From NCBI GenBank assembly GCA_020072565.1, contig JAIQGI010000001.1, forward strand, positions 62,001 to 126,000: a stretch of DNA of 64,000 nucleotides. Direction: 5' to 3'. How positions within the stretch are numbered: position 1 is the first letter of the stretch; each line of letters starts with the position of its first letter. The position numbers and the translations under genes are program-made. This stretch comes from Terriglobia bacterium. GTDB taxonomy: Bacteria; Acidobacteriota; UBA6911. The notes beneath the pieces are model-generated. The model made no database searches and was not told where the DNA came from. It saw only the letters and a list, made by a program, of their open reading frames with translations. Shown here piece by piece: positions 3,357 to 38,713 of this stretch.

Positions 3357-4334
3357 CTAAGCGGCAGCCTGAGCCTCGCGCGCTTTGATGCTGTCGAGTG
3401 CAAGCGCTTCCTGGAGCGCGCGGATCGCGACTTCCAGCTGCTCGTCGCCGGGCTCTTTGGTCGTAATGCGCTGGAGCGTCAGACCAGGAAGAACCACCAG
3501 CCGGAAGAAGCCCTGCCGGCTGCGGGGAGCCGAGAAACGGATCAGCTCGTAGGACAGGCCCGAGATAAGCGGGATCAGTACCACACGCGAAAGGAAAATG
3601 GCCCAGAAGGCCTGGAACTTAAAAATGGAGAAGACCACGATGCTGACCACCATCACGAACAGCAGGAAGCTGGTGCCGCAGCGGGGGTGCAACGTGGACT
3701 TCTTACGGGCGTTTTCGACCGTCAGTTCTTCACGGGCTTCCCAGGTATAGACCACCTTGTGCTCGGCGCCGTGATATTGAAAAACGCGCTTGATGTCTTT
3801 CATCCTGCTTATCAGCAGGATGTAGGAAAGAAAGAACACGACCCGGATCACGCCGTCGACGAGGTTGAAGACAACCCAGTTGTGAACGGCCGCAAAATAC
3901 CCCTTCAGCCACGTCGTGATGTAGAGCGGCACCAGGATGAAAATTCCGATAGCAACGATCGCGGCCGCACCCATTGACAACGCGATCGGCAGCCAGCTGC
4001 TGTCCCGGGATGTCTGGCCTGATGGGGTGGTCGCCGCAGCATCGGGTTTCGCTTCAGCATGCGCAACCGCCGCATTAAAGGAGAAGTTGAGCGTGCGGAT
4101 TCCCAGCACCAGGGATTGCAGCAGGACAGCGAAACCGCGGACGACAGGCCACGTGAGGGGCTTCCAGACGTCGGCCAGACGGCGCACGGGCTCCTTCTTG
4201 ACAGTCATCGAACCATCCGCGCGCCGGACCGCCACCGCATAGGCGTACGGCGTGCGCATCATGACGCCTTCGATCACTGCCTGCCCGCCGACAAGAATGT
4301 CTTCGGGTGACCCCTTTTTGTCGCTACCCGGCAT
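3357..4334 (-). CDS. DUF1385 (YqhQ-like) membrane protein
   Basis: A 325-residue DUF1385 protein. The N-terminus carries the family signature [14 protein letters not shown] (about residues 17-30), followed by several hydrophobic stretches likely to span the membrane (about 130-155, 170-190 and 230-260) and a conserved segment [13 protein letters not shown] with HGAEHK, often interpreted as metal-binding. The biochemical role is not established; Bacillus YqhQ is the usual reference. Placement between rpmE and prfA is a recurrent arrangement in several phyla, so it is probably co-transcribed. The ATG at 4334 is preceded by GAGGA at suitable spacing. Confidence 0.9.
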
Positions 4335-4362
4335 GGATATATCCTCTATCCGTGGGCAGCCG

Positions 4363-4563
4363 CTATTTCAGACTGTACTTTTTCTGGAAACGTTCGATGC
4401 GGCCGGCAGTATCGATCAGCTTCTGCTTCCCGGTGAAGAAAGGATGGCAGGCCGAGCAGATCTCCAGGCGGATCTCCTTCTTCGTGGATCGAGTCTCAAA
4501 CTGGTTCCCGCAGGCGCAACTTACCTGCACCTTATGGTATTGGGGATGTATATCCTTTTTCAT
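4363..4563 (-). CDS. rpmE: 50S ribosomal protein L31
   Basis: L31 binds the large ribosomal subunit near the central protuberance and helps bridge the subunits. The 66-residue protein starts [10 protein letters not shown] and keeps four cysteines (about 16, 18, 36, 39; CxC then CxxC), so it is the zinc-containing (C+) form, which can also act as a zinc reserve. The ATG has GAGG seven bases upstream, and an extended -10 promoter lies about 22 bases before it. It is the first gene of the minus-strand housekeeping run towards murA. Confidence 0.97.
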
Positions 4564-4581
4564 GTACGCCTCACAAAAACC

Positions 4582-4593
4582 TTTATTATACCA
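4582..4593 (-). promoter_or_regulatory. Extended -10 promoter for rpmE
   Basis: On the minus strand the sequence reads TGGTATAAT (TATAAT at 4590-4585 with the TGn extension at 4593-4591). No convincing -35 hexamer lies 16-18 bases upstream, as is common for extended -10 promoters. The predicted start would leave an rpmE leader of only about 15 bases. Confidence 0.55.
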
Positions 4594-4668
4594 GATGCTG
4601 CAAGAAACCGGCCACGGATTCCAGGAAACGCCTGGTTCGTGGAATCCACAGCTGAGGTTTCTTTCCGA

Positions 4669-7521
4669 CTATCTAAATGTCACCGGCTCAGCCGGGCCAT
4701 AGTAGATCCCGTTGAACAGGAACTTGAACGTGCCGTGCGGCTGGCCGCGGAAGAGAATCTCGGGCCCAAACAGAAACAGCTTGCCTTTCCCGACCGGCAC
4801 CGCCACAACCGCTACTGTTTGTTCCAGATATCCCTGGCCCAGGGCCCAGCCGCTGCGCAGTGGCGTCTTGCTGTCAAACCAGGCCACCGGCCGCAGGTCC
4901 GCAAGAGAAGCAGCGGGTTCGAGGTGGAACACGGGGCTGTTGTCGAAGAAGAAGTCCACCAATTCCTCCATGCCGTAGGCCAGTGGATCGCTTGAATTCA
5001 CGCGGCCCTGGAGCACGGAGCCGGGGACATAAAACTTGTCGCGCGCCAGATGCCTTTCTGTGCCGTCGGCCTGCTTCTCGGCCAGCCCGTCCGCGATCGG
5101 GAGGCCAAGGTGGTAGGCGAGGTTCGTCGAACTGCCGATCGTGAGAATGGTGCCGCCCTCTTCCAGGAACCTGCGCAGCTGCGGAACGGTCGTCGCCACG
5201 CTTATTGTGCCTACCCGATCCTTATATTCAGGGGGGATGGTCGCCTGGGCCCCCCCGCCAAAACCGCCACCACCACGGCCGCCGCGACCGCCGCCTTCCG
5301 CAGGGAGCGCCGGCATGGCGCCGCTGACAAAGATCAGCACGTCAAAATTAGAAGCGAGGTTGCCCGCGTCCAGCCTGGGTGGAAAAACCAGCTCGAACGG
5401 AGCCTCGAATTGCTCGAGCAACCATCGGGTCCAACCCGAATTCATATTGCCGCCATACTGGTCCCAGAGGCCGATGCGCACCGGCCGGAGCTTCAGAGCG
5501 TCGCCGGTCGGTCTCGTGGTGACCGCATCGAAGTTCAGGCCGAAGTCCCTGGCCAGCGTCCCCAAGACCGCTGCAGTGGTCGGCTTGGCGGGAATAAACA
5601 GCGTACCCGCCGGATAGTTCTTTCCATTGGCGCTGATCGGCTTTTTGAGCCAATACACTTCTTCATTGGCCTTCAACAACCGGTTGGTCGCGATAAATGC
5701 GTCGTTGATCTGATGGCTCAACAGGAAGCCAGCCGTCCCCTGGACAGACAAGACCTTGCCGGCAGGCGGCTTCGCAAAGCCGGTGATTTTTTCGAATGGT
5801 CCGTCAAAGCCATCGAGGATGCGGTCGAATTTGACGCCCATCTGGTAGGCCAGGGTCCAACCGGCGATGTCGTACGGAGGCCGCGGAGGACCACCCGGAT
5901 ACTGGAGGTCGTTCGGGTGATCCTGGGGTTCGAACATGTCCATGATGTGCGGCCGGAATGCCTGGGCGGCTTTGACGACGTAGGAACCGGCGGGATAGCT
6001 CTTGCCGCCGACCTGGAACGGAGCGGTAGCTCGATGAATGGTGATTCCGTTCTTGATCAGAGCGTTGACGAACTTGGTTGCGGTGAGAAAGTCGGGCTGG
6101 TCCGAGGGGATGATAAAGCCGCGAGGATCACGCCGCGAGGGATCCCGCATCATATCGTAATACTTCAACGCGACGCCGCCACCCCTGCCGCCGCTCCCAC
6201 CCGGAGCCCCGCCGCGCCCGCCGGCCTGACCCGGGGCTCCGGCGCCAGCTGCTGTACTTGCAGCCGCACGGTCTCTCGCCTGAGCCTCTTCAATTGCCGT
6301 GATTTCTTTCGGATGCACGGTCCAGTTGTCACGGTTTCCTTTGTCGATGGAGTTTTTCCCCATGCGGTAAATGTTCATGAGGAACTCCTCCCGATACTTG
6401 GATGCCACGTCCAGAACCGCGCGGTCAGCCGTGATCGAATAGTCGATGGACTGCCGGAAATGCCACTCCTGCTGGGGCTGGATCGGGTAGGGAAGGTCCG
6501 CCCTCGGGAGCTGCTGCTGAGGGACAAACGAGATGCTCTGGGGAGTCGGATTGCCGATCGCTTCGGTCAGGAGTCCGATCATGTTGTGAAAGTAGACATC
6601 CGTCCGCAATCCTCCGTTCCACCAGGTAGAATAGCTCGAGCCGGTGCGCATCGTGGCCCCCGGTTTACCCTCGGCGATAAAACGGTCGTGCATGGCCGCC
6701 GCGACCAGGTCGATGCCGATGGGCACGAGCGGATCGAAATTATAATTGAACGGATCGCGGAAAGGCGGCGCAAACAGCACGGTCCCGGCTGGTCCGGTCT
6801 GGTGGTGGTTATAGACGATCAGGGGGAACCACTCGTGATAGAAAACGTTGTTGATGGCCGTGGTTTCCGGCATGTTCGACATGTAGAAGTCCCGATTGTC
6901 GTCATGGCCGACGTACTTGTGATATAGGACCGGCAGCCCGCTCATCGTGCGCTTGGCCGGATCCGGAGTCTGCATGTACCAGTTGGATACCAGATCCATC
7001 CCGTCGGGATTGACGATCGCGGCCAGGAGAATATCGTCGTTGAGCAGCCTAAGCGTCTCGGCATCATTCATGCTCACCATCTGCCAGACCAGTTCGATGA
7101 GCTGCTGCGCGCCCAGGCATTCGGTGGCGTGCAGACCTCCGTCGATCCATACGACGGCCTTGCCTTCACGCGCCAGGGCTCTAGCCTGCTCGTCGGTCAA
7201 TCCTTCCGCCAGCGCCAGGCGGCCTGCGATCTCCTTCAGGTGCGGGAGTTTCTTCTGATTCTCAGGCGAAGTGATGACGGCCATAAACATCGTGCGATTG
7301 TCGGCAGTCTTGCCGATCTCGACGAGCTTGATGCGATCCGACTGCTGGGCCAGCTTTTTCCAGTAGTCGACCATTTGCGCGTAGTTCGCAAGCTGGTAGT
7401 CGTCACCGATGTTGAACCCGAAGTGCTCTTTGGGAGTCGTGATCTTGCTCTGGGCTGCGGCCGACAGCACGGTCAGCGTCACGGCCAGCAGACATACGAG
7501 GAAATGAGTTTTGAGCTTCAC
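4669..7521 (-). CDS. Secreted M14-family zinc carboxypeptidase-like protein
   Basis: A large (950-residue) exported protein. The first 23 residues form a signal peptide ending LSAAAQS. An M14 metallopeptidase domain follows: zinc ligands are seen in GGLHATE (HxxE, about residues 131-134), with a further histidine in VYNHHQTG (about 240) and the catalytic-glutamate region LTEAIG near 325. Two glycine/arginine-rich low-complexity stretches (near residues 425-450 and 770-790) separate the peptidase from C-terminal parts that may form a glutamine-amidotransferase-like fold, as in related acidobacterial proteins (inference). The GTG at 7521 has GAGGA about nine bases upstream; an in-frame GTG at 7536 is less well placed. 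Probably periplasmic peptide degradation; single-gene unit. Confidence 0.9.
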   Translation of the reverse strand: MKLKTHFLVCLLAVTLTVLSAAAQSKITTPKEHFGFNIGDDYQLANYAQMVDYWKKLAQQSDRIKLVEIGKTADNRTMFMAVITSPENQKKLPHLKEIAGRLALAEGLTDEQARALAREGKAVVWIDGGLHATECLGAQQLIELVWQMVSMNDAETLRLLNDDILLAAIVNPDGMDLVSNWYMQTPDPAKRTMSGLPVLYHKYVGHDDNRDFYMSNMPETTAINNVFYHEWFPLIVYNHHQTGPAGTVLFAPPFRDPFNYNFDPLVPIGIDLVAAAMHDRFIAEGKPGATMRTGSSYSTWWNGGLRTDVYFHNMIGLLTEAIGNPTPQSISFVPQQQLPRADLPYPIQPQQEWHFRQSIDYSITADRAVLDVASKYREEFLMNIYRMGKNSIDKGNRDNWTVHPKEITAIEEAQARDRAAASTAAGAGAPGQAGGRGGAPGGSGGRGGGVALKYYDMMRDPSRRDPRGFIIPSDQPDFLTATKFVNALIKNGITIHRATAPFQVGGKSYPAGSYVVKAAQAFRPHIMDMFEPQDHPNDLQYPGGPPRPPYDIAGWTLAYQMGVKFDRILDGFDGPFEKITGFAKPPAGKVLSVQGTAGFLLSHQINDAFIATNRLLKANEEVYWLKKPISANGKNYPAGTLFIPAKPTTAAVLGTLARDFGLNFDAVTTRPTGDALKLRPVRIGLWDQYGGNMNSGWTRWLLEQFEAPFELVFPPRLDAGNLASNFDVLIFVSGAMPALPAEGGGRGGRGGGGFGGGAQATIPPEYKDRVGTISVATTVPQLRRFLEEGGTILTIGSSTNLAYHLGLPIADGLAEKQADGTERHLARDKFYVPGSVLQGRVNSSDPLAYGMEELVDFFFDNSPVFHLEPAASLADLRPVAWFDSKTPLRSGWALGQGYLEQTVAVVAVPVGKGKLFLFGPEILFRGQPHGTFKFLFNGIYYGPAEPVTFR

Positions 7522-33716: not shown

Positions 33717-34577
33717 TCAGATCCAGGTGATCCGGAAGCCGCCGATGCCGGTCGTGACGACCACCGAAACATGGATCTTCTTTTCGTTGTAATTCTCGCT
33801 GTAGTAGTCGGCGCCGGATTCTCTGTGAAAACCGTCGAGCCGCAGGCCGCTTAGGAAATGCTTTTCAGCGGAAACCCTGACGCCCACATCGCGCGGCATC
33901 TTCACGTCTACACCTCCCACGCCCACCTGGACTCGCACTTCGGCGTCCTGCTTCCACAAGCCGGAGAAATCAAGGTTGGCCCCGCCTACTCCGCCTTCGA
34001 ATTCAAACCGGCGGAAATTGAGGTTGCCCAGGCCGACGGCATCCAGGCTGCCCACGCCGTTGCGGAGGCGGATCTGGTCGCAGACTGTCGGATTCGGATC
34101 GTAAGCGGAGAGTCTGGCGCCGCCGACGCCGGCTTCGAGATCGAGGCGGCTCAGGCGCAGGCGCGACAGGGCGAGCCGGGCGTCACCCACGCCGGTATTG
34201 ACCTGAAGGCTGACCGGCAGCGCATCCGTGAGGGAGAGGATTAGCCTGTTGTTCTGCCGCTCGGTCCGGATACCCCCCAGATGATTGCTTTCGAGCTTGA
34301 AAGTGAGGCGTCCTTCGGTGCCGGGCTCATAGTTGATCTCGGGTAGGTAGCTGGACTTGTCATACTCCAGGGTTGCCGAGTACAGTCGCGACGCGCTTTG
34401 CCCCGAAATCTCGAGCGAGCCGATATCGAGGCGTACATCCGCTTGCAGGGAGGACTCACTGCCGATGGGGCGGCTCTGATTCATCGTGGCCATCTCCACG
34501 GGAACCCGCTGCTCCAAGTTGCAGCCGGAGCATAGAACAGCCGCTGCAATGCTTGCCTTCCAGAGGATGTCTCTCAT
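33717..34577 (-). CDS. Toast-rack domain lipoprotein
   Basis: A 286-residue lipoprotein with signal peptide and lipobox VLCSGC (Cys about 19). The mature protein is an array of beta-strand repeats ending in GVG: NTGVGDARLALSRLRL, EAGVGGARLSAYD, RNGVGSLDAVGLG, EGGVGGANLDFSG and QVGVGGVDVKMPRDVG, then a C-terminal TTGIGGFRITWI. This ladder is the 'toast-rack' arrangement found in LiaF C-terminal regions and relatives. Probably anchored at the inner or outer membrane facing the periplasm. Last gene of the five-gene sigma-factor operon, 21 bases after the DUF4097 gene. Confidence 0.82.
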   Translation of the reverse strand: MRDILWKASIAAAVLCSGCNLEQRVPVEMATMNQSRPIGSESSLQADVRLDIGSLEISGQSASRLYSATLEYDKSSYLPEINYEPGTEGRLTFKLESNHLGGIRTERQNNRLILSLTDALPVSLQVNTGVGDARLALSRLRLSRLDLEAGVGGARLSAYDPNPTVCDQIRLRNGVGSLDAVGLGNLNFRRFEFEGGVGGANLDFSGLWKQDAEVRVQVGVGGVDVKMPRDVGVRVSAEKHFLSGLRLDGFHRESGADYYSENYNEKKIHVSVVVTTGIGGFRITWI

Positions 34578-34598
34578 CGGATTTCTCCTGGACGATGA

Positions 34599-36422
34599 TT
34601 ATTTGTCGCGCCTGCTCGCCCGCTCGACCTCCAGGGCTCGCACAAAAATGTCGTTGTTTTCCGTCTCGAGGAAGATCTTGGGGGCTCCGGGTTTCAGCTT
34701 TTTGATCGTGGTGATGTCGCCGGGTCCGGAAGTGGGTTCCAGTCCGGCAAAGTCCGTTGAGATACGACCGTTGCGGGCAGTGGCATCGATCTGGAAAACA
34801 GAGTTCGGCGGCAAAGACAGGGTGATTTCGCCGTTGCTGTTTTTGACGTTGATCTCATCTTTTCCCAACGTCGCAGTCGACAGTGTGACATCACCGCGCT
34901 CGTTCGTCACCTTGCAGCCCTTGCTGAAGTCGTTCACGATCACTTCCTTCAAGGTCGTGCTGATTTCCACCGGACCGCCCACCCGGGTCACCTGGACGAG
35001 CGCCCCCTGTGCCGTAGCTTTGACATAACCGCCGACATCGTTAAGAGTGACTGAGCCCGAATTGGCGTCGACGTCCACGTTTCCTTTGACACCTTTCATT
35101 GTGGCTGTGGCGTACTGGCTTGAGAGTGTCACATTGGCGGCCACATCGGTCACCCGGATGCGCCTGCTGTGGCTGCTGGTGATCTTCAGGCTGTCCCCCA
35201 GGTTACTCACGCTGATCTGGCTCCCGCGGGCATCGATGATCACGGGCTTTGACACATGATCGATGACAATGCCGCCCTCTTCGTTCGCGACTGTCACTTT
35301 TCCCTCAATGTCGTTGATCTGCACCGGAGAGTACTGGTCGCGGATGTCGACATCGCCTTTGACAGTTTCCACGGTGACCCGCCCGTGGGAATCGACCGAG
35401 AGGTTGCCGGTCAGGTTTGCCAGCCTCGATTCGCCGTAGCTGTTTGCCACCGAGAAGCTGCCGCTGCACTCGCGCACTTCCAGAGGTTGATGGCTCGATT
35501 GGACGTTGAGCTTGCAGTCGAGACCCGAGACGTTCACTCCGCCGAAAGGATTTTGGATATCCAGCTGCACTTTCCTCGGGACCAGGATCTCCATATCGGT
35601 ATTGAAGCGGTAGTTCTTGGAAGACAGATCGTCTCGGTTCGATTTCACTGTGAAAGACGAAGCCTCCGCCTTGCCCTCTTCCCCTCCCTCGATTTTGATC
35701 TCGTCGGCGATCTGCCTGGCGCGCGCCTCATCGTCTTCGTAAACTCTCTTGCGCAGGCGGATGCGAACCTCGCCGTCACTGCCGGGGGAAACGGTGACGA
35801 GGCCGTGGGAATTCTCAATGCGCAAGGGTATTCCTGCGGGAAGGGGGTACGTGAATTCCTGAGTGTACTCGTGCGATGTCCCGATGAACACGTCGGTGCC
35901 GCCGATGTTTATGGATGTTGACAGGATGTCCTTCATGGCGCTGTCTGGGATCTGGGAGATCGCCAAGCCGATGATGAGCACAAACAGTATGCCGAAAACC
36001 TCTCCGATCTTGAGGGAAACTCCTTCTTTTTGCCGGAAGTAGTCAATAACCTTTCCCAAGCCGAGCAGGATGAGAAGAATCGGCCAGTAACGCCGCGCAA
36101 TCGCCCACAAATCCGGCCCGATGCCGAAGTTCTTGAGCAGGAACACGATCCCCAGGGCAGCCCAGAGCAGGCCCCCCAACAACGAGGGCCGCCGTCTTCG
36201 CAAGCGCCTCGCGGCGGGATCTGCGGCTGCCGGCTCCTCCTGCCAGGTGAAATAGAAATAGAGCTTTTTCGCCCCGACCAGAATCAGCAGGACCGGCCAA
36301 TAGCGTGCGACCAACTGCCACGCTCTGAGGGTCGAATACCAGTTGGAAAGAAAAAAGGCCAGACCGATGCAGATCAGGATCACCCCGAAGATTAATGCGC
36401 CCTTGCGGGAACCAGCAGACAT
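34599..36422 (-). CDS. DUF5668-DUF4097 membrane protein
   Basis: A 607-residue protein with two parts. Residues 1-165 hold about five hydrophobic segments in the LiaI/LiaF-like DUF5668 pattern, with twice-repeated (A)RRYWPxLLILxG motifs (ARYWPVLLILVGAKKLY and ARRYWPILLILLGLGKVID). The remaining 440 residues are a long DUF4097-type beta solenoid with many short repeats (VTVETVKGDVDIRDQYSPVQ, VTLNDVGGYVKATAQGALVQ, INVKNSNGEITLSLPP) expected outside the cytoplasmic membrane. The solenoid resembles B. subtilis LiaG-type proteins in family, the membrane part LiaF. It may sense or bind envelope components; this is inference. Fifteen bases separate it from the upstream B-box gene. Confidence 0.85.
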   Translation of the reverse strand: MSAGSRKGALIFGVILICIGLAFFLSNWYSTLRAWQLVARYWPVLLILVGAKKLYFYFTWQEEPAAADPAARRLRRRRPSLLGGLLWAALGIVFLLKNFGIGPDLWAIARRYWPILLILLGLGKVIDYFRQKEGVSLKIGEVFGILFVLIIGLAISQIPDSAMKDILSTSINIGGTDVFIGTSHEYTQEFTYPLPAGIPLRIENSHGLVTVSPGSDGEVRIRLRKRVYEDDEARARQIADEIKIEGGEEGKAEASSFTVKSNRDDLSSKNYRFNTDMEILVPRKVQLDIQNPFGGVNVSGLDCKLNVQSSHQPLEVRECSGSFSVANSYGESRLANLTGNLSVDSHGRVTVETVKGDVDIRDQYSPVQINDIEGKVTVANEEGGIVIDHVSKPVIIDARGSQISVSNLGDSLKITSSHSRRIRVTDVAANVTLSSQYATATMKGVKGNVDVDANSGSVTLNDVGGYVKATAQGALVQVTRVGGPVEISTTLKEVIVNDFSKGCKVTNERGDVTLSTATLGKDEINVKNSNGEITLSLPPNSVFQIDATARNGRISTDFAGLEPTSGPGDITTIKKLKPGAPKIFLETENNDIFVRALEVERASRRDK

Positions 36423-36437
36423 GAGATCCTCCTCCTA

Positions 36438-37073
36438 CTAATCCTTATGCTCGCTCACCGCGGCCGTCTTCCTGGCTGACGACTCTTCTTCCCGTTCGCG
36501 CAGAGATCGGTAGACGAAATATGCTCCCAGCCCGATAAAGACAAGCGGCCACAGCCGGTTGAGGAAAGGGTAATGGATAAAGTTCTTCAGCAGAAACAAC
36601 ATGCCCATGCCGATGAGGAGGATGCCCCAGGCGGCAACCGTCTTGTCCTTGCCCGGGCTTTCGGGCACGGGCTTCTGCTCCATCCGTGCCCGAAGTCTGG
36701 CTTCCGCGATGCGATAGGAATCGAACATGGTGTAAATAAGGAAGACAAAGGCCCCGAATCCGAACACCCCGCTGAAATTGTCACCCATGATGGTGAGCGC
36801 CGCGAACACTGCAAACTGGGTGATGGCCTTCTGGTAGTCGCCGTTATAGACGGCTCCCATGCCGGGGATCAAAGAGAGTGCAGCTGCACGTTTGGGCGCA
36901 TCTGAGGGAATGCGGAGATCCTTGACGGCAGCCGCCCACTCCGCGCCGCGCACGAGACAATCCTGGCAATAAACCTTGCCTTTGATCTGATGCGAACATT
37001 CGGCGCACAGGGCCCTGCTGCACGTACTGCAGAATTCCTGGGACTCCACTGCGGGATGATATGCGCATTTCAT
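36438..37073 (-). CDS. B-box-type zinc-finger membrane protein
   Basis: A 211-residue protein. Residues 1-45 form a B-box-like zinc finger: MKCAYHPAVESQEFCSTCSR then CAECSHQIKGKVYCQDC, with Cys3, His6, and further CxxC pairs. After a linker comes a hydrophobic region (about 65-115, LSLIPGMGAVYNGDYQKAITQ, a TM2-domain-like pattern) and a DUF5668-like pair of membrane segments near the C-terminus (WGILLIGMGMLFLLKN, LWPLVFIGLGAYFVY). The zinc finger should face the cytoplasm. In the operon it sits between the anti-sigma factor and the DUF4097 protein; it may link membrane state to a cytosolic partner (inference). Confidence 0.85.
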   Translation of the reverse strand: MKCAYHPAVESQEFCSTCSRALCAECSHQIKGKVYCQDCLVRGAEWAAAVKDLRIPSDAPKRAAALSLIPGMGAVYNGDYQKAITQFAVFAALTIMGDNFSGVFGFGAFVFLIYTMFDSYRIAEARLRARMEQKPVPESPGKDKTVAAWGILLIGMGMLFLLKNFIHYPFLNRLWPLVFIGLGAYFVYRSLREREEESSARKTAAVSEHKD

Positions 37074-37108
37074 GAGTCATCTCCTTCCAGGCTGATGGCC
37101 TGCCCTGG

Positions 37109-37735
37109 CTAAGCGGGAAACAGCCAGACGCTGCTCTTCTGGCCGGGGTTTTTTTCCTGCTGCTTCTGCTCTGCCGGTTTCTTCTTGCCTTCGACCGGCA
37201 CATCCAGCTTCTGGATCATGTCACCCAGCGTGCCGAACACATTGTTCTTGATTGAGGAAAATTGGGTTTGCCACTCGTTTTTCGCGTTGTACAGTCTCAG
37301 CCCTTCGCTATAGAGTTGCTGCACACCGCGGTCCATTTTGAGCAACAGCCCTTTGGGCGAGAGAACGGAGGCAAGTACATTCGCGCGCGGGACCATCAGA
37401 TCCACCGCCAGGGCCACGAAGAGCAAGCCCAGACCGGCGCTCATCGCAAAGCGCGGGGTCAGGGCGGGCCGCAAGAAGTGGGTCCTGAGGCGTTCGCGAA
37501 AGGAGCGTGTCCGTGGCCGCCCTGAGGTCCGAAGCAGGATTCGGTCGAGCAGCGCCGCATCCACCTCATAGGATGGAAATGCCCTGCAGGTGACGAGCAT
37601 GGATCGCATCTCCTCCATCAGGACCAGGCAACTGTGACATTCCTGGAGGTGCTCTGCCACCTGCACCATCTCCTCGTGCGGCAAGGTGCGCTCGACGTAC
37701 TCGCTCAAGCGTTCTTCTATTAATCCGCACTTCAT
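37109..37735 (-). CDS. Zinc-binding anti-sigma factor (ZAS/zf-HC2)
   Basis: A 208-residue membrane protein. The N-terminal zf-HC2 domain has Cys3 and the ZAS motif EHLQECHSC (HxxxCxxC, His about 29, Cys 33 and 36), which in this family binds zinc and clasps the cognate ECF sigma factor. A single membrane segment (about 97-114, SAGLGLLFVALAVDLMVP) leads to a periplasmic part of about 95 residues ending in a lysine/glutamine-rich tail. It starts nine bases after the sigma-factor stop, the standard arrangement for a sigma/anti-sigma pair. Confidence 0.93.
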   Translation of the reverse strand: MKCGLIEERLSEYVERTLPHEEMVQVAEHLQECHSCLVLMEEMRSMLVTCRAFPSYEVDAALLDRILLRTSGRPRTRSFRERLRTHFLRPALTPRFAMSAGLGLLFVALAVDLMVPRANVLASVLSPKGLLLKMDRGVQQLYSEGLRLYNAKNEWQTQFSSIKNNVFGTLGDMIQKLDVPVEGKKKPAEQKQQEKNPGQKSSVWLFPA

Positions 37736-37744
37736 ACCTGCCCC

Positions 37745-38323
37745 CTAGACCTGCATTCCTGCTTTCGCCCGTCGCTTGGTCAGCAGCTTCCCCAGCTCCA
37801 AACGCCCCCGGTTGATCCGGCTCTTGATCGTGCCTTCCGGGACCCCCACCAGTTCGGCGATCTCCTGGTAGGCCATGCCTTCCAAATCGCGCAGGATGAT
37901 CGCTTCCTTGAGTTCCGGAGAAAGCGCCTGCAGGCCCTCTCTGAGAAAAATGGCAGCTTCCGATTGCTCGACGCCCCGCTGGGGATTGGGAATCTTGTCG
38001 TCCGAAAGATTCATGTTTTCCATTTCCTCGGTCCCTGCGGTCTGCTGATAGCGCCTTGTCCGCCGGTAGTGATCAATAATCAGGTTGCGTCCGACTTTCA
38101 TGATCCAGCTCTGAAAGCTGCCGGATTCGGAGCGGAAACTCTTGAGATTTTGATAAACCCGGATGAATATCTCCTGAGTTAAGTCCTCCGCCTCGTCCCG
38201 GCGACAAGTGTAACGATAAGTCAGGTTGTAAATTCGCTTGGCGTACGAATTCACAACCGTCTCCCAGGCGGCGTCATCTCCCTGGAGACAGCGCTCTACC
38301 GTTTTTTCATCGCCCGGGAGCAA
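37745..38323 (-). CDS. ECF (group 4) sigma factor
   Basis: A 192-residue RpoE-like sigma factor. Region 2 is seen as YRYTCRRDEAEDLTQEIFIR and VYQNLKSFRSESGSFQSWIM, region 4 as LSPELKEAIILRDLEGMAYQ and EIAELVGVPEGTIKSRINRG. The start is taken as TTG 38323 because AAGGAG lies six bases before it; the frame extends to TTG 38371 without support. It is the first gene of a tight operon with an anti-sigma factor and three envelope proteins, all 9-35 bases apart, so it very probably controls its own operon. I see no certain ECF -35/-10 pair upstream. Confidence 0.95.
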   Translation of the reverse strand: MLPGDEKTVERCLQGDDAAWETVVNSYAKRIYNLTYRYTCRRDEAEDLTQEIFIRVYQNLKSFRSESGSFQSWIMKVGRNLIIDHYRRTRRYQQTAGTEEMENMNLSDDKIPNPQRGVEQSEAAIFLREGLQALSPELKEAIILRDLEGMAYQEIAELVGVPEGTIKSRINRGRLELGKLLTKRRAKAGMQV

Positions 38324-38713
38324 TCGTAACTCCTTATCTCCTGTCCCAATCAACGAAAGGGGACGAGGCAAAGTTCAATAAATCGGATCAGGGCCTTCAG
38401 TCGCGGCCCGGACGGCGAGAATGGAATGATCAGGTCAGAGATTGAACTGTATCAGGCTCCGGAAAAAGAAGATACATTTTCTTATTTCTGAATGGCTTCT
38501 GCAACATCATCCGCAAAAAGGGATTCTTTCTCTCTTCCAGCTCTGACATACAGGGCTGTGATTCCAGGGTAGAAAACGGAAATGTTCGCTTGCTGCGGCA
38601 GGCGTCCAGCCGTTTCTTCTTGACCTTTTGGGCATTTTCATATTTATTTCTGTAACGTCTTTGAAATAGCTAACTTGAAGGATTTGCAAAGAGAGCGGGG
38701 ATCGTTCGAATCG
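38324..38713. other. Divergent region between the sigma-factor operon and nrdR
   Basis: A 390-base stretch without a gene. On the plus strand TTGACC (38620-38625) with an A/T-rich TATTTATT (38641-38648) could be a weak promoter for nrdR. The string TGTAACG at 38651-38657 followed about 13 bases later by GCTAAC is of ECF-promoter character, but its spacing and direction (towards nrdR) are not compelling. DNA at 38460-38490 is AT-rich. Confidence 0.35.

Follow-up and report, generated by a model that had tools for sequence, protein, structure and literature searches.

In Firmicutes, LiaF negatively regulates the two-component pair LiaRS, and the envelope genes that the extracytoplasmic function (ECF) sigma factor sigma-W controls in Bacillus subtilis lie apart from sigW-rsiW; one of them, yknWXYZ, encodes a MacB-like ABC exporter. 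We know of no settled function, in any organism, for the toastrack and LiaF-TM domains. To our knowledge, hardly anything has been reported about how Acidobacteriota, which are among the commonest soil bacteria, sense damage to their envelope. Here we describe an operon from a Terriglobia bacterium (GCA_020072565.1, contig JAIQGI010000001.1, positions 62,001 to 126,000; this stretch of 64,000 nucleotides is referred to as the window) that combines an ECF sigma factor, a membrane anti-sigma factor and three Lia-like envelope proteins.

The sigma-W targets of B. subtilis include yvlB (DUF4097), yuaG/floT, yknWXYZ and pspA (PMC3498285). For the DUF4097 domain of LiaG an extracellular location has been proposed (PMC9239133), whereas toastrack was predicted to be intracellular in a 2024 survey of phage shock protein (PSP) systems; among the gene contexts of toastrack, this survey also lists DUF2089-like, B-box and LiaI-LiaF-TM proteins together with an "operonically linked sigma factor" (PMC11237479). 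The Psp network described for Acidobacteriota is centred on PspA/PspC, in a text that uses neither the term ECF nor the term sigma factor (PMC9239133).

An ECF sigma factor operon with Lia-like envelope genes

The operon lies at 33717-38323 on the minus strand. Its five open reading frames (ORFs), separated by 9, 35, 15 and 21 nucleotides, confirm an earlier note on this DNA that had described five same-strand genes with gaps of 9-35 bases. Pfam and NCBIfam agree with the assignments made there: sigma factor, zinc-binding anti-sigma (ZAS) factor, LiaI/F-like transmembrane (TM) segments, DUF4097 and toast rack. The features are, in the direction of transcription:

38352..38376, minus strand: ECF-type promoter GAACTTT-N14-CGTT, with the -35 element GAACTTT at 38370-38376 and the -10 element CGTT at 38352-38355; predicted autoregulation.
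37745..38323, minus strand: ECF sigma factor, 192 residues, TTG start, AAGGAG at 38330-38335; Pfam Sigma70_r2 (8.7e-21) and r4_2 (6.9e-16); member of a phylum-wide orthologous clade.
37109..37735, minus strand: membrane anti-sigma factor with an N-terminal ZAS domain (H-x3-C-x2-C; zf-HC2, 2e-07), one TM segment (residues ~93-111) and a periplasmic tail of ~95 residues.
36438..37073, minus strand: membrane protein with a cytosolic B-box (8 zinc ligands), a TM2-like hairpin and a LiaF-TM hairpin; Pfam LiaF-TM (8.3e-08), LiaI-LiaF-like_TM1 (8.6e-08), DUF5683 (0.0011) and B-box (0.0039).
34599..36422, minus strand: 607-residue protein with a LiaI-like hairpin, a LiaF-TM hairpin, a fifth TM segment and a periplasmic DUF4097 beta-solenoid, from Pfam, the AlphaFold2 (AF2) model and the charge pattern.
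33717..34577, minus strand: toast-rack lipoprotein (Toast_rack_N and LiaF-like_C) with lipobox Cys19, from Pfam, AF2 and the PDB match 4qrk.

The sigma factor consists of regions 2 and 4 only (~190 residues) and scores 114.8 bits against TIGR02937 (cut-off 42.9), which places it in group IV (ECF). With the NCBIfam SigW equivalog it reaches 120.4 bits, below the cut-off of 209, and it is not classified as SigW. A longer sigma ORF could start with the TTG at 38371; since this codon falls within the -35 element and AAGGAG sits six bases upstream of 38323, the latter, which the earlier note had also given, is the better start.

The anti-sigma factor is of the ZAS type: zf-HC2 scores over the cut-off, the gene adjoins the ECF gene, hydropathy predicts a single TM segment, and the H-x3-C-x2-C motif is kept in the aligned relatives. 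A sequence search of the PDB with this protein gave no match. The C-terminus (37109-37160) forms a hydrophobic tail (SSVWLFPA and alike), which is conserved in the window's family and may be recognised by a protease or a PDZ domain.

For the third protein the B-box named earlier holds in that none of its eight Cys/His ligands varies among 17 aligned relatives, but its Pfam score is below the cut-off (17.8 versus 24.1 bits), and the middle hairpin had been overlooked. No other part of the family is as well conserved as this hairpin (PGMGAVYN; weak DUF5683, TM2-like). LiaF-TM and LiaI-LiaF-like_TM1 are present in both membrane proteins, in two copies in the 607-residue one (Pfam). No match was found when a plasmid collection was searched with the B-box protein.

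Conservation across Acidobacteriota

Among 40 relatives, 28 have the solenoid protein and 25 the B-box protein. All five genes were found in the same order and on the same strand in 17 of 20 fetched relative loci, and the other three reach contig ends. A scan with the B-box alignment, in which each GTDB species was represented by a single genome, then yielded 76 loci. Going by their titles, nearly all come from Acidobacteriota (Terriglobia, Blastocatellia, Acidiferrales, Bryobacterales); to these are added Aminicenantes and one locus labelled Bacillota. In the 67 loci with at least 1.6 kb of upstream DNA, an ECF sigma gene always precedes the B-box/TM2/LiaF-TM gene, and a recognisable anti-sigma gene is present in 65; the two loci without one are from Aminicenantes. 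A DUF4097 solenoid gene follows downstream in 55 of 62 loci, and the lipoprotein occurs in 18 of the 76, all of the window's class. The earlier note's reading, an ECF sigma/anti-sigma pair in charge of Lia-like domains, is thus borne out by the Pfam domains, and it withstands the refuting condition named there, as the neighbourhood is conserved in relatives.

The genes differ in their constancy (L-numbers denote fetched loci, and G000 is the window's own genome). In all three Aminicenantes loci (L117-L119), a one-TM protein without the ZAS cysteines stands at the place of the anti-sigma factor, followed by a TM2/LiaF-TM protein without a B-box, a LiaI-like protein of 74-77 residues and a DUF4097 protein. 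L034 and L037 lack the B-box and keep the sigma, anti-sigma, TM2/LiaF-TM and DUF4097 genes together. Because these and the out-of-class loci drop the B-box, the ZAS domain or the lipoprotein, we define the operon core, from sequence comparison, as the sigma factor, a membrane anti-sigma factor, a TM2+LiaF-TM protein, a LiaI-like hairpin and a DUF4097 solenoid. In essentially every locus the TM2/LiaF-TM gene is the next one 3' of the anti-sigma gene, and its start overlaps the anti-sigma stop by 4 nucleotides in 37 of 71 loci scored; judged by gene position, the anti-sigma factor has its constant partner in the TM2+LiaF-TM protein. In a draw of 297 Acidobacteriota genomes, the B-box family profile matches 212, in many over the TM2/LiaF-TM part only; in 59 the match starts at the B-box, with E-values down to ~1e-34 (counted from the match table).

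The contig labelled Bacillota (L069) carries the acidobacterial form of the operon. Since its sigma factor groups with Acidobacteriota sigma factors, this label is probably wrong.

A conserved promoter upstream of the sigma gene

A shared ECF promoter motif, which the earlier note had suggested looking for upstream of homologous operons, was indeed found: of 69 loci, 68 have GAAC-N17-CGTT just before the sigma gene, against ~1.7 expected (Markov shuffles: ~0.5 of 17 and ~1.2 of 52), a set that includes close relatives, so that the 68 occurrences are not 68 independent events. The predominant form is GAACTTTT-N13-CGTT, and the spacer is 17 in 66 of the 68 loci. In the window the motif matches once, at 38352..38376. 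Autoregulated ECF operons are recognised by such a promoter, conserved immediately ahead of the sigma gene, and its presence in 68 of 69 loci makes it very probable that the operon activates itself in vivo.

The genome from which the window comes has only two sites of the strict form GAACTTT-N14-CGTT, one before the operon and the other before a MacB/FtsX permease gene. As the genome has 50 sigma-70 region-2 genes, the strict motif is not its general ECF promoter.

Related sigma factors in the same genome

In a tree of sigma factors, those of the operons form one lineage, set apart from most paralogues of the own genome. The lineage also holds two of these paralogues. One (L270, G000:C76, 4030-4656; 280 bits with the window sigma) is solitary, without anti-sigma or envelope genes. 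The other belongs to a second, shorter module (L143, G000:C2:20000-30000, 4167-6282), which consists of an ECF sigma factor, an anti-sigma factor with two zf-HC2 stretches and a TM2/LiaF-TM protein without a B-box, with no DUF4097; GAAC-N17-CGTT is located at -97, and a relative in G005:C106 is preceded by the same promoter type. In L145 (G000:C3:122000-132000, 4269-7357), an unrelated ECF sigma/anti-sigma pair is followed by an exported 605-residue solenoid related to the window's DUF4097 protein, and a DUF4097 and an ECF gene lie close together near 65 kb of G000:C30. The ECF/DUF4097 pairing recurs with different sigma factors.

Structure and topology of the toastrack proteins

The AF2 model of the solenoid protein (predicted local distance difference test, pLDDT, 80) has five long N-terminal helices followed by a beta-solenoid, with low confidence in the membrane part. 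In 13 sequences, loops 2 and 4 carry Lys/Arg and loops 1 and 3 almost none, a positive-inside pattern that puts the solenoid in the periplasm. A fold search of the PDB with the solenoid gave weak toast-rack matches only. The lipoprotein was modelled with a pLDDT of 89, and 4qrk is its best PDB match both by sequence (3e-31) and by fold; its lipobox Cys19 is invariant in 17 relatives. It narrowly exceeds the Pfam cut-off for LiaF-like_C (29.9 versus 29) and stays below that of the NCBIfam LiaF equivalog NF040535 (24.2 versus 57 bits). Judged by topology and lipoboxes, the toastrack domains are placed outside the cell here.

Six loci (L022-L026 and L036) have a solenoid ORF that is broken after the first hairpin (~residue 73) into a small LiaI-like ORF and the remainder directly after it, mostly in the same frame. 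The break is mostly an in-frame stop with a new start at once. Since the LiaI-like unit stands as an ORF of its own in these loci and, as the usual arrangement, outside the window's class, the 607-residue protein has probably arisen by fusion of two proteins, one LiaI-like and the other with LiaF-TM and DUF4097.

The RYWPxLLILxG repeats of this protein and the GVGGA ladder of the lipoprotein had been proposed to be matching surfaces. We found no evidence for this and rejected them as binding surfaces, as both are family signatures: RYWPxLLILxG is that of LiaI/LiaF-TM, and GVGGA, which is conserved throughout its family, forms the regular rungs of the toast-rack fold.

Genes downstream of other copies of the promoter

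An ORF of at least 120 residues starts 15-60 nucleotides downstream of ~30 of 71 off-operon strict sites (one of them, L176, is itself a sigma gene that slipped through the filter), compared with 2 of 30 reversed-pattern controls (p = 0.0003), the control loci leaning to AT-richer genomes. The targets checked include five DUF4097, three DUF2807 and one band 7 protein, and the following groups were recognised:

L127, L137, L158, L192, and L178 (longest ORF starting at +2): DUF4097.
L187, L196, L200: DUF2807.
L128: band 7.
L122, L126, and L195 (at +68): MacB.
L184-L186, L204 (45% identity), and L179 (weakly similar): a small exported family.

None of five control ORFs belongs to any of these groups. 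As the nine genomes checked have 1-6 DUF4097 matches each, the enrichment of DUF4097 at strict sites is large, even allowing for relatedness. The stand-alone toastrack genes with the operon-type promoter have no anti-sigma neighbour, which fits output better than sensing; from their distribution, the toastrack domains look more like an output than a sensor. The small exported proteins have no Pfam match above the cut-off and contain two internal repeats with an (I/V)xVPLxLL-like motif.

A broad regulon deduced from counts of strict sites was considered and dropped; a site is informative only through its placement ahead of a gene and through what that gene encodes.

Proposed mechanism

Our favoured reading, which we consider reasonably probable, is a self-activating envelope-stress module in which an ECF sigma factor is held by a membrane anti-sigma factor with the TM2/LiaF-TM protein as co-regulator, and in which the toastracks are the output. 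At rest, the ZAS domain of the anti-sigma factor would keep the sigma factor bound. The TM2/LiaF-TM (B-box) protein, whose gene is often translationally coupled to the anti-sigma gene, would sit with it in the membrane. Damage to the envelope or membrane would loosen this hold by proteolysis or a conformational change of the anti-sigma factor, and the free sigma factor would transcribe its own operon from GAACTTT-N14-CGTT as well as further toastrack (DUF4097/DUF2807), band-7 and MacB genes that differ by lineage. The products, LiaI/LiaF-type membrane proteins with periplasmic toastracks and the toast-rack lipoprotein, might bind and shield the envelope, and newly made anti-sigma factor would close the loop. 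Gene order, promoter and domains are demonstrated at the sequence level; sequestration of the sigma factor we infer.

Several points weigh against this reading. Across 119 genomes, the strict motif is not in excess over its reversed pattern, and the wider regulon must therefore be small or degenerate. The AT bias of the control loci affects the comparison above, the off-operon targets vary by lineage, and some of them (L184-L186; L196/L200) are orthologues within one genus and thus not independent. Chance could account for the second strict site in the own genome. Envelope stress as the signal is suggested by analogy with Lia, PSP and sigma-W, and the co-regulator role by gene position, the 4-nucleotide overlap being the only direct hint.

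A somewhat unlikely alternative is that the signal enters through the periplasmic tail of the anti-sigma factor by regulated proteolysis, and that the three downstream proteins are pure effectors without a regulatory role. The single TM segment, the hydrophobic end of the tail in the window's family and the promoter ahead of stand-alone toastracks are in line with it; however, the TM2/LiaF-TM gene right after the anti-sigma gene and their overlap suggest a shared complex, and neither a known sensor domain nor a protease site was recognised.

We regard as unlikely the route of the earlier note, in which the lipoprotein and the DUF4097 protein sense damage and signal via the B-box protein to the anti-sigma factor. 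The genes are co-located, and LiaF, which shares its end domain with the lipoprotein, is a negative regulator in Firmicutes, but this route is weakened because both the lipoprotein, absent outside the window's class, and the B-box, absent from L034/L037 and Aminicenantes, are dispensable in relatives, and stand-alone toastracks have the same promoter. It is very improbable that the envelope genes are co-transcribed housekeeping genes and the ECF unit answers an unrelated signal such as metal or oxidative stress: ZAS and B-box are both Cys/His zinc sites and redox sensing is known for some anti-sigma factors of the ZAS type, but phylum-wide conservation and the extra toastrack targets point to the envelope, and Aminicenantes keep the operon without both zinc sites.

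The favoured module looks like a standing envelope-stress system of Acidobacteriota that recurs across the phylum. The operon is conserved and self-contained, and its promoter, now identified, offers a direct handle for reporter use; the extra targets predict which proteins cooperate.

Comparison with known systems

With LiaIH-LiaGFSR of B. subtilis and other Firmicutes, the operon shares LiaI/LiaF-type hairpins, DUF4097 (as in LiaG) and Toast_rack_N/LiaF_C. It differs in that the five genes include no LiaR or LiaS and have an ECF sigma factor and a ZAS anti-sigma factor instead. LiaH (PspA) is absent from the locus, and the own genome has a single weak PspA_IM30 match, on another contig. A B-box/TM2 protein is added, and the TM segments and LiaF_C are on separate proteins, the latter on the lipoprotein. 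The earlier description of an ECF factor in place of LiaRS is correct for these genes but not unprecedented, as yvlB (DUF4097) of B. subtilis is in the sigma-W regulon (PMC3498285, PMC9239133).

The domain set and the idea of a linked sigma factor carrying the output are also found in the 2024 survey, whose text names neither Acidobacteriota nor an anti-sigma factor, the promoter or a regulon (PMC11237479). A periplasmic solenoid agrees with the extracellular placement of LiaG (PMC9239133) and conflicts with the intracellular prediction made in the survey (PMC11237479); the operon thus bears on the disagreement over the side on which toastracks lie. The Psp network of Acidobacteriota comes from the same phylum and likewise comprises envelope-stress proteins including band 7 (PMC9239133). 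No paper was found in a literature search for ECF, Acidobacteria and DUF4097 together, and, judging from the papers searched, four points are new: the phylum-wide ECF/ZAS operon, the promoter ahead of it, the toastrack regulon predicted here and the topology.

The sigma-W regulon (yvlABCD, yuaFGI/floT, pspA-ydjGHI, yknWXYZ) also has an ECF sigma factor over DUF4097 (YvlB), band-7/flotillin and ABC exporter genes, and the off-operon target classes appear to parallel it in kind; here, in contrast, the core genes are joined into the sigma operon. Tentatively, we suggest a phylum-wide ECF system with a dedicated toastrack output acting outside the cytoplasmic membrane and a two-part membrane brake formed by the ZAS anti-sigma factor and the TM2/LiaF-TM protein. 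If true, this would be a third way in which PSP/Lia modules are wired to transcription, besides two-component and PspF/helix-turn-helix control.

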